A stretch of 26,489 nt of DNA. Origin: a virus. Below, one piece after another: positions 3,959 through 24,381 of the stretch. Under the pieces are notes generated by a model that was not told the DNA's origin, did no database searches, and saw nothing but the letters and a program-made list of their open reading frames with translations. The DNA lies in the IMG/VR virus record IMGVR_UViG_3300027754_000368, positions 1 through 26,489 of that record, one strand, 5' to 3'. Numbering within the stretch: the stretch's first letter is position 1; every line of letters starts with the position of its first letter. The translations under genes and the position numbers were made by a program.

Positions 3959-4260
3959 TTGTTTGCCACGGTCTGCGGGAATGGGAGTTCTTCGTAGGCT
4001 TGATTCAAGAGTGCCAGGTAGCCGAGAGCGTCGAGCAGGCTGTCGTGGTGCAGACGGTTCTTCTCAAGGTTGGTGCGGAGTCGTGCCATCTTTACCGACA
4101 CCATGAACAGCAGCGCATCGGACATGGAGAGTCGGATGCCTGTCAGCCCAGCGAAGATGTCAATCACTTTGGCGTAGTCTTCGGTGACTGGGCCGTAACT
4201 GGCGTTGCGTGGACCTGTAATGGTTGCGTGTGCTTCGAGCAGAATGTTCTCGCCAGTCAT
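3955..4260 (-). CDS. DUF6378-like phage protein, 101 aa
   Basis: The protein begins MTGENILLEAHATITGPRN. It has a short turn with an ASYG motif, then a helix around DYAKVIDIFAGLTG, then a hydrophobic helix with KMARLRTN, then DSLLDALGYLALL. The ordered features (N-terminal helix, R-x-x-x-YG, K-x-A-R-L, D-S-x-x-D-x-x-G-Y) match the phage domain I know as DUF6378, often encoded among replication genes. Its biochemical role is unknown. The ATG overlaps the previous stop as ATGA. Confidence 0.7.
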   Translation of the reverse strand: MTGENILLEAHATITGPRNASYGPVTEDYAKVIDIFAGLTGIRLSMSDALLFMVSVKMARLRTNLEKNRLHHDSLLDALGYLALLNQAYEELPFPQTVANK

Positions 4261-4445
4261 TTGTTCTCTTTGACGATTTCGTATTTGGATTGGCTAAATG
4301 CAAGGACACGGCCGTTTGGTTCTATGCCGATCCATGTCGGATTATCTGGGTCGCAAAGACATCCTGCAATGCGTTCGGTGTTGAGTCGGACTTCGCCGTC
4401 ACACAGTTGGCAAACGATGTATGTGTCGAGTCCGATGGTGATCAC
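4257..4445 (-). CDS. Small Cys-rich protein, possible zinc ribbon, 62 aa
   Basis: The start is a GTG at 4445 that overlaps the preceding stop (GTGA), read as MITIGLDTYIVCQLCDGEV. It carries CQLC (residues 12-15) and CLC (29-31), a CxxC plus CxC arrangement. That could bind one zinc ion as a small ribbon. The rest is a short beta-rich stretch (WIGIEPNGRVLAFS). Zinc binding is inference from cysteine spacing, and the family is not recognised. Confidence 0.6.
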   Translation of the reverse strand: MITIGLDTYIVCQLCDGEVRLNTERIAGCLCDPDNPTWIGIEPNGRVLAFSQSKYEIVKENK

Positions 4446-4816: not shown

Positions 4817-4857
4817 CGACCTTACTCTGCCGAAAGGGATAGTGCAAAGTAAGGTCG
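4817..4857 (-). other. 10-bp perfect inverted repeat (RNA hairpin) ahead of small-gene run
   Basis: CGACCTTACT (4817-4826) and AGTAAGGTCG (4848-4857) are perfect complements around a 21-base loop. In the minus-strand transcript the hairpin would end 22 bases upstream of the ATG at 4794 and sit just after the SSB-like gene. No T-tract follows, so it is not a typical intrinsic terminator. It could be a processing or stability element, or a U-tract-free terminator of the kind described in actinobacteria. Confidence 0.6.
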
Positions 4858-7167: not shown

Positions 7168-7456
7168 GAGTACCATCTCTCCTTCTTCGTCGTGTCTCGT
7201 TGCGTCGCTCGACTGTTGTCAGTCCGCCCCACACGCCGACAGAATCGTTCTTGATAGCAAAGTCTAGACACTTTTCGCGGACCACGCAGATGTCGCAAAG
7301 TTTCTTCGCTTCACGCACCGCATGTAAATATCTTTCGTGGAAGAAGATGTCTGTTCCTTCGCCACGACAAGTTCCGTATTGTTGCCAATCTGGTCGGAGT
7401 AATTCGAAGACGTTCTTCGACTCCGACCAGACGTCAATGATTCTGTTTTCGCTCAT
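7082..7456 (-). CDS. whiB: WhiB-family iron-sulfur transcriptional regulator
   Basis: This 124-residue protein has the four conserved cysteines of WhiB proteins (residues 30, 54, 57 and 63; LCDIC spacing C-x2-C-x5-C), which bind a [4Fe-4S] cluster. The family turn VGVWGGLT follows at 73-80, with a basic RRRRRD stretch behind it. WhiB proteins act with the primary sigma factor in Actinobacteria. Phage copies such as that of mycobacteriophage TM4 are known to interfere with host WhiB function and superinfection. The start overlaps the preceding stop (TGATG). The C-terminal tail of about 25 residues (ending PRPRPPKG) overlaps the resolvase-like gene and lies beyond the conserved domain. Confidence 0.93.
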   Translation of the reverse strand: MSENRIIDVWSESKNVFELLRPDWQQYGTCRGEGTDIFFHERYLHAVREAKKLCDICVVREKCLDFAIKNDSVGVWGGLTTVERRNETRRRRRDGTHVKSATKKRYARRIAGGEVLPRPRPPKG

Positions 7457-7638
7457 CAGTTAATTTGGCGTATCCATTTAGATACTTTGATCATCACCGC
7501 AAAGTTGATTGCCGCATAGATTGCGATCTGTGTTGTTGATGCCGGTGATTCTTCTGGGAGTCGTGGCATGCAAAGAAGCATGACCCAACCCGCCAAGATG
7601 AACGCCAATGTGAACTTGATTTTTTCTTTGTTACTCAT
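7456..7638 (-). CDS. Small membrane protein, 60 aa, two TM segments
   Basis: The protein starts MSNKEKIKFTLAFILAGWVM and has two hydrophobic segments, at about residues 8-26 and 38-52, joined by a short polar loop (PRLPEESPASTT). The end is basic (KVSKWIRQIN). AGGAGG lies seven bases before the ATG. It sits between the endolysin gene and whiB. A holin or other lysis accessory is possible from size and topology, but nothing distinguishes it from a general small membrane protein. Confidence 0.65.
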   Translation of the reverse strand: MSNKEKIKFTLAFILAGWVMLLCMPRLPEESPASTTQIAIYAAINFAVMIKVSKWIRQIN

Positions 7639-7681: not shown

Positions 7682-8245
7682 TTAGGGCATGGATGTGGTG
7701 GATACCTTGCAGACCGTCCAGTTGCAAGGGTTCCAAGGCTCAAAGCCTGACATGCGGTACAGAACCAGCCCAGCCTGAAGATTCGTGTAGGCGTCCAATA
7801 GTGGTGCTTGGGTGCAGATGTTTAGTTCACGGCAAACCGCAGCCCACTTGTTTCTTTTCGTGTCGTAGTTGACGCCATTAATTTGAAGGAGTCCTGTATC
7901 TGACCTGTGATTCCATTCGCTGACGCCTGTCACGTTGCAGTCTTCGTCAACCTTGTCTCCACCGCGACGGTTTGGGCAACCGCCTGATTCGCGTAGGACG
8001 ATCTGGGTGAGCTGGTCAATGCTGTGGTCTGGCCATCCTGCCTGCTTGGCAAGGGACGGAAGCCAGGAGACATCGCCGTGACGGAACCTGATCGGCTTGG
8101 GTAGGTCAAGCCTGTCAGGTTGCCAGAGTGGCTGTAATGCTTCGACATCGCTTCTGGTGACGTCTGGTGCGTATGCGGCGTGGGCTATGCCAAGGCTCAT
8201 GGTGAGTGTTGCGACTGTTGCCATGATTGCGGAGAGTATGCGCAT
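7682..8245 (-). CDS. Secreted lytic transglycosylase/lysozyme-like endolysin
   Basis: This 187-residue protein starts at the ATG at 8245, chosen because GAAAGGACC lies just ahead and because it begins a clear Sec signal peptide (MRILSAIMATVATLTMSLGI, with AHA before the likely cut near residue 24). The mature part has IVLRESGG with candidate catalytic Glu86 and SDTGLLQING (115-124), the signature of SLT/lysozyme-like muramidases. Six cysteines suit an exported, disulfide-bonded enzyme. It would cleave host peptidoglycan at lysis, reaching it through the Sec system rather than only through a holin. A hairpin with an anti-SD loop lies 29 bases upstream. Confidence 0.85.
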   Translation of the reverse strand: MRILSAIMATVATLTMSLGIAHAAYAPDVTRSDVEALQPLWQPDRLDLPKPIRFRHGDVSWLPSLAKQAGWPDHSIDQLTQIVLRESGGCPNRRGGDKVDEDCNVTGVSEWNHRSDTGLLQINGVNYDTKRNKWAAVCRELNICTQAPLLDAYTNLQAGLVLYRMSGFEPWNPCNWTVCKVSTTSMP

Positions 8246-8274
8246 CGTGGTCCTTTCGTAAGTGCAGAGGGTAA

Positions 8275-8304
8275 CGCAACTCAGAAGGAGGTGACTGAGT
8301 TGCG
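8275..8304 (-). promoter_or_regulatory. Hairpin with anti-Shine-Dalgarno loop upstream of the endolysin gene
   Basis: CGCAACTCAG (8275-8284) and CTGAGTTGCG (8295-8304) are perfect 10-bp complements enclosing a 10-base loop. On the transcribed minus strand the loop reads UCACCUCCUU, identical to the conserved 3' tail of bacterial 16S rRNA. The hairpin ends 29 bases before the endolysin ATG. No T-tract follows on either strand, so it is not an intrinsic terminator. Pairing of the UCCUU part of the loop with the endolysin's own AAGGA is possible. Confidence 0.7.
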
Positions 8305-8372
8305 GTGACACTCAACCCTAGTGGGGAGGACACAAGGCAACCTTAGCCGATGGGCTTTGATTTTCGCTAGTT

Positions 8373-24342: not shown

Positions 24343-24381
24343 AAGTCCACGGCCAACCCTGCACGAAATGGCCGTGGACTT
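24343..24381 (-). terminator. Intrinsic terminator after the major capsid gene
   Basis: AAGTCCACGGCC (24343-24354) and GGCCGTGGACTT (24370-24381) form a perfect 12-bp stem with a 15-base loop. On the minus strand it is followed by TTTCTCTAT, a T-rich stretch. It lies about 60 bases after the capsid stop and ahead of the GT4 gene, so it would limit read-through from capsid into the glycan cassette. Confidence 0.75.

Follow-up and report, generated by a model that had tools for sequence, protein, structure and literature searches.

Described anti-Shine-Dalgarno loops and structured lysis genes

In phage lambda, translation of the holin encoded by the S gene is controlled by an mRNA structure, sdi, which sits at the holin start itself. 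The leader described here would, according to the role proposed for it, resemble sdi in that an RNA structure governs the start of a lysis gene and hence the timing of lysis, but it lies upstream of another gene and would therefore have to act at long range. Loops carrying an anti-Shine-Dalgarno (anti-SD) sequence are already known from the small RNAs (sRNAs) CyaR, RNAIII and 6C, whereby CyaR possesses an anti-SD hairpin loop, SD sequences are targeted by C-rich loops in RNAIII and further sRNAs (PMC2837412) and B11 (6C) employs two C-rich loops to repress an mRNA that carries a G tract in its 5' UTR (PMC10470900). For actinophages, the SAS/ESAS elements of Cluster K mycobacteriophages were reported, of which a genome carries several copies, each accompanied by an SAS that bears an SD (PMC3203893).

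The window, i.e., the whole stretch of 26,489 nucleotides that was analysed, possesses a lysin gene whose leader comprises two adjoining hairpins, P1 and P2 (Table 1). With CyaR, RNAIII and 6C/B11, P2 shares a stable hairpin whose C/U-rich anti-SD loop is conserved and unpaired, as is characteristic of RNAs of the CyaR/RNAIII type, and could pair with SDs; unlike them, it is a phage leader that keeps a distance of 28-31 nt to the lysin start codon and is tied to one operon. With ESAS it has in common that conserved inverted repeats lie beside translation starts in actinophages (PMC3203893). However, ESAS is repeated at several genes, whereas P2 occurs once per record (exactly one TYACCTCCTT in 23 of 23 related phage records) and its loop is an anti-SD and not an SD, hence the ESAS arrangement of several copies, each with an SD-bearing SAS, was not found for P2. 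Covariance-model searches of Rfam, including 6C RNA, with the window region and nine related loci gave no relevant match at E values up to 3-5. P2 may act like an anti-SD loop RNA without necessarily belonging to the CyaR, RNAIII, 6C or ESAS families.

Table 1. Features of the lysis region and its leader in the window
Feature	Position	Strand	Basis and remarks
-10-like hexamer TAAGGT	8340..8345	(-)	leader alignment; promoter reading inferred
P1 hairpin, abuts P2	8305..8335	(-)	RNAalifold and folds of all clades
P2 hairpin, 10-bp stem CGCAACTCAG/CTGAGTTGCG	8275..8304	(-)	folding and covariation
P2 loop UCACCUCCUU, anti-SD	8285..8294	(-)	invariant core CCUCCUU at 8285-8291
Lysin SD GAAAGGA	8251..8257	(-)	complement of the 3'-most 16S tail of actinobacteria; no more than 5 bp with the P2 loop
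Secreted lysin gene (signal peptide and lysozyme-like domain)	7682..8245	(-)	ORF; Pfam SLT_3, weak, E 0.0033
SD AGGAGG of the two-TM gene, putative target of the P2 loop	7643..7648	(-)	match of 6 bp in the window and of 7-8 bp in most relatives
Two-TM holin-like gene, 60 aa, two hydrophobic segments	7456..7638	(-)	conserved; follows the lysin in all loci that have P2

The P2 hairpin and its conservation

Read on the minus strand from 8304 to 8275, the window gives CGCAACTCAG-TCACCTCCTT-CTGAGTTGCG, meaning a perfect 10-bp stem which closes a 10-nt loop equal to nucleotides 1532-1541 of the E. coli 16S rRNA (compared with rrsB), and the hairpin ends 29 nt upstream of the lysin ATG (8245-8243). 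In the predicted ensemble the P2 stem forms with a probability of 0.97 and the loop core is unpaired with a probability of 1.00. A chance origin of P2 in the window is excluded by dinucleotide shuffling, as a CCTCCTT loop closed by a stem of 8 bp or longer arose in none of 400 shuffles of the window, the expected count of the loop 10-mer alone being 0.05. A preliminary description of this DNA had put forward the perfect stem and ten-base loop, a distance of 29 bases to the endolysin start and a loop match unlikely to arise by chance, all of which was re-derived from sequence, folding and shuffling; the folding of the leader which it had proposed as a check likewise returned a formed stem and a free loop. 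Its further claim, that the loop is identical to the conserved 16S tail, holds for the ten bases matching E. coli 16S, but the conserved property is the anti-SD core and not exact identity.

About 27 distinct leaders of close relatives (first clade) were gathered from IMG/VR by pattern and protein searches, L264 and the clade B leaders were found by searching with the protein encoded upstream of the leader, and further leaders came from a search with the SLT-type lysozyme of clade B. Taken together, the 42 or so different leaders obtained comprise 12 distinct P2 sequences, all with a CCUCCUU loop; as the script hairpin scans sought CCTCC-type loops only, a P2 homologue with another loop could be missed. 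First-clade stems were found to change in pairs (CGCAACTCAG, CGCAACCAG, CGCAACCAAG and CGCATCAAG, each with its own complement) around the constant loop TCACCTCCTT, the sole exception being TTACCTCCTT in L030. L264 possesses the stem CGCAACCAC/GTGGTTGCG and differs in its upstream sequence, clade B carries CGCACACC/GGTGTGCG with the loop YCCCCUCCUU and precedes a different, SLT-type lysozyme, and the lysozyme-based search added the stems CCTCACAC, CCCGCATC, CGCACACCC and CGCACCCCC. All eight base-anchored pairs form in 12 of 12 P2 sequences, with at least two pair types at seven of the eight positions. Among the six stems of equal length, 100% of cells are paired, five of nine pairs show changes on both sides (formal count) and the covariation score amounts to 0.62 as compared to 0.16 when shuffled and at most 0.13 when slid; beyond these, stem length varies through paired insertions. 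The spacing between P2 and the start codon is 28-31 nt throughout the relatives, and the same leader precedes different lysin types, with different upstream genes. A covarying structure at a fixed distance from one kind of gene, as in cis-acting structured leaders, was thus found. In the preliminary description a search for the same element upstream of lysins in related phages had been proposed, and missing conservation of stem and loop had been named as speaking against a function; the search recovered the element, and stem and loop are conserved, with covariation. Judging by these alignments, covariation maintains the P2 stem, and what persists across all clades is the 7-nt anti-SD core.

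This invariance bears on two further readings. According to the first of these, P1 and P2 would merely be a 5' stabiliser or a ribosome standby structure whose loop sequence is incidental, as might be suggested by hairpins with unrelated loops which lie near the presumed 5' end before other lysins as well; given that the loop core stays invariant while stems and flanks change completely, this reading is highly improbable. The second assumes that the loop is a decoy or control site, imitating the 16S 3' end so that a protein or nuclease would recognise it. Ten-base 16S identity is, however, confined to the window's clade (clade A) and L264, the other clades having YCCCCUCCUU, and since no more of the loop than CCUCCUU is invariant, the match to 16S over its full length is in part a feature of the clade. 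Imitation of the 16S end would be in line with that identity and with two larger actinophages in which a different hairpin, with the loop UCACCUCC, is followed by a 13-nt stretch identical to 23S rRNA, but clade B loops depart from 16S outside CCUCCUU and the idea comes without a candidate protein, which makes it improbable.

A hairpin with the loop UCACCUCCGAG was observed directly after the lysin at L315:1862-1935 (OQ999401.1 ~4191-4264) and at L033:3575-3660, whereby CCG-UCACCUCCGAG-CGG is conserved on otherwise different stems in phage DSL-LC01 and the 98-kb contig (L033). This post-lysin hairpin is followed by GTCCTAAGGTAGC(GA), which equals nucleotides 1922-1934(1936) of E. coli 23S rRNA (13 nt, 15 nt in DSL-LC01), so that 16S- and 23S-like pieces occur together in two large actinophages (DSL-LC01, L033); no convincing match was obtained in any further phage record. 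A more general idea, in which actinophages use rRNA mimicry near lysis genes and the P2 loop (16S anti-SD) and the UCACCUCC-loop hairpin with its 23S 1922-1934 piece are decoys or sensors for a factor recognising rRNA ends or core, tying lysis to the state of the ribosome, is a long shot. Among GenBank phages, leader and lysin were without match, only a distant SLT relative being present in DSL-LC01, where the hairpin scan gave no P2-like hairpin before the lysin; a host or prophage search of genome contigs returned nothing.

Leader anatomy and strand

A TANNNT hexamer was found at the equivalent place in every clade (TAAGGT, TAGACT, TAGGGT, TAGGCT, TAAGAT), 5-7 nt before P1. In the window, TAGGGT (8315-8320) had been considered as -10 element and was dropped for TAAGGT, as with the latter P1 follows TANNNT at 5-7 nt in all clades; a promoter consensus scan of the window did not flag the TAAGGT hexamer. 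From the hexamer only, we infer that the mRNA would start at P1. This hairpin is degenerate in the window (a GTG/CAC base and CCC-ACTA-GGG) and stronger in the relatives, where RNAalifold revealed a change from C-G to U-A in L061, L067 and L070 and where clade B and its kin possess a covarying stem with a UU bulge. An intrinsic terminator was not identified at P2, as no U tract lies 3' of it in the window and a terminator scan of the window, which allows loops of 3-8 only, gave none at this position.

Single leader hairpins, their loop often containing UACUA or UACUG, were also seen in lysin relatives that are devoid of P2 (L150, L157, L160, L162, L169, L178, L187, L192, L194), with a CUAUCC-like motif between hairpin and SD, and AACGCCCA...TGGGCGTTTT, a hairpin resembling a terminator, occurs in the lysin leaders of another SLT-lysin group (L347-L395). 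Other strong inverted repeats of the window locate to 4817-4857, 24343-24381 and 7389-7431.

The RNA was placed on the minus, lysin-coding strand because of the gene direction, the U.G pairs seen in the sense reading (L334 and the closing pair of clade B) and the lack of A.C pairs. Being an inverted repeat whose opposite strand reads AAGGAGGTGA, the feature could instead act as a DNA operator or as the SD of a plus-strand gene. Yet stem length varies by paired insertions, the U.G pairs favour the sense strand and the recognisable genes of the window are found on the minus strand; moreover, a plus-strand ORF of 15 codons with a TTG start, which some relatives possess, is interrupted in both the window and L030, and clade B shows different antisense frames opposite the leader. 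A plus-strand gene behind the ideal SD was hence rejected, in agreement with the preliminary description, which had seen none following, and action of the feature as DNA or from the opposite strand is scarcely credible.

Partners of the loop and a possible lysis timer

The two-TM protein is holin-like by topology alone and gave no match in Pfam or PHROG. Among 160 loci (80 from each of two lysin-family searches), P2 and the two-TM gene are both present in 53 and both absent from 105, while P2 alone was found in none and the gene alone in two, the 53/105/2 split being obtained by subtraction; with the overlapping loci of an earlier search added, these counts become 77 (both), 109 (neither), 0 (P2 only) and 2 (gene only). 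Both loci with the gene only are contigs cut inside the lysin, and in L031 and L032, where a methyltransferase-like gene is inserted between the lysin and the two-TM gene, the latter still follows. Complementarity between the loop and the SD of this gene comprises 6-8 contiguous Watson-Crick bp in 38 of 38 leaders (6, 7 and 8 bp in 6, 16 and 16 of them), with a pairing energy of -10.2 kcal/mol in the window.

To the SD of the lysin, the loop offers 4-5 contiguous bp in the 38 leaders, and in the window this pairing (five contiguous pairs) amounts to -4.6 kcal/mol as compared to -9.5 kcal/mol for 16S with the same SD. Pairing being weak, the lysin SD was rejected as chief target of the loop. 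An H-type pseudoknot between the loop and the lysin's own SD (UCCUU with AAGGA), which would restrain lysin translation, might be reasoned from the 5-bp match in nearly all leaders and from the 28-31 nt spacing as a connector of constant length; next to the energies, however, only 4 bp are left in L334, the invariant CC of CCUCCUU would be unused and any SD matches an anti-SD to this extent, so that such a pseudoknot is rather unlikely. Of the partners named in the preliminary description, the endolysin's AAGGA therefore proved a poor fit, whereas the AGGAGG of the gene at 7456-7638 fits best: 6-8 pairs are predicted in all relatives, and gene and hairpin co-occur perfectly.

In clade B, the loop CCCUCCUU faces AAGGAGGG in most SDs of the two-TM gene, which gives 8 bp, but this match is not specific, as GGAGGG is frequent in the SDs of clade B as a whole (20 of 72 GGAGG sites in the clade B records L405-L414 versus 4 of 49 in clade A). 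A covariation of loop position 3 with the holin SD was considered and set aside, being suggestive in clade B, where, however, GGAGGG is common, and L264 misfits. The frequent GGAGGG SDs of clade B were seen to match the CCCUCC of the clade B loop. The leader might also be, or yield, a trans-acting sRNA whose C/U-rich loop pairs with strong SDs of phage or host mRNAs in the manner of 6C, RNAIII and CyaR, to which it bears resemblance in loop chemistry and accessibility (PMC2837412, PMC10470900) and for which the frequent GGAGGG of clade B phages would provide targets; this is unlikely, given that the tight start-codon spacing and the perfect co-occurrence with one operon gene point to action in cis, that no clear terminator follows P2 and that Rfam holds no match.

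With a probability of roughly 45%, the P2 loop of the lysis-operon leader masks the SD of the holin-like gene and thereby sets the timing of lysis, a reading which is favoured because P2 co-occurs with one gene across two lysin types. The suggested mechanism assumes that the lysis-operon mRNA begins at P1, with P1 and then P2 as a conserved two-hairpin leader, and that the exposed anti-SD loop would pair with the strong SD of the holin-like gene (AGGAGG/AAGGAGG(G)) about 600 nt downstream, either in cis on the same mRNA or with a sister copy, which would block ribosomes at this gene. Since P2 would lie directly 5' of the ribosome footprint on the lysin start, and since the lysin SD pairs better with the 16S tail than with the loop, the lysin would still be translatable. 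The holin-like protein would be made later than the lysin, until the pairing is relieved (e.g., by leader decay or mRNA build-up), and this delay would set the timing of lysis. Masking is weakened above all by the fact that a strong SD such as AAGGAGG will match every anti-SD loop: the SD of the two-TM gene ranks 1-9 of about 50 by energy in its own genome (genomes where the script recognised it), thus among the best but not unique. In clade A, moreover, the three bases with which the loop opens (UCA) find no pairing partner in cis. A kissing contact of 7 bp that spans 600 nt, with the 16S tail binding equally well, may be a weak repressor, the co-occurrence could stem from one shared lysis cassette, and the loop may compete with ribosomes, as had been considered in the preliminary description.

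In a group of actinobacterial viruses from metagenomes, the lysis-gene mRNA would thus open with two small hairpins, one of the two presenting an anti-SD copy. A structured RNA family with strong covariation and without Rfam match is thereby added to viruses known mostly from metagenomes, and its seven loop bases versus one SD are a simple handle for testing lysis timing in actinophages. If masking holds true, the leader would be a phage lysis clock made of RNA, in which an anti-SD copy in the lysis-operon leader restrains the holin-like gene.
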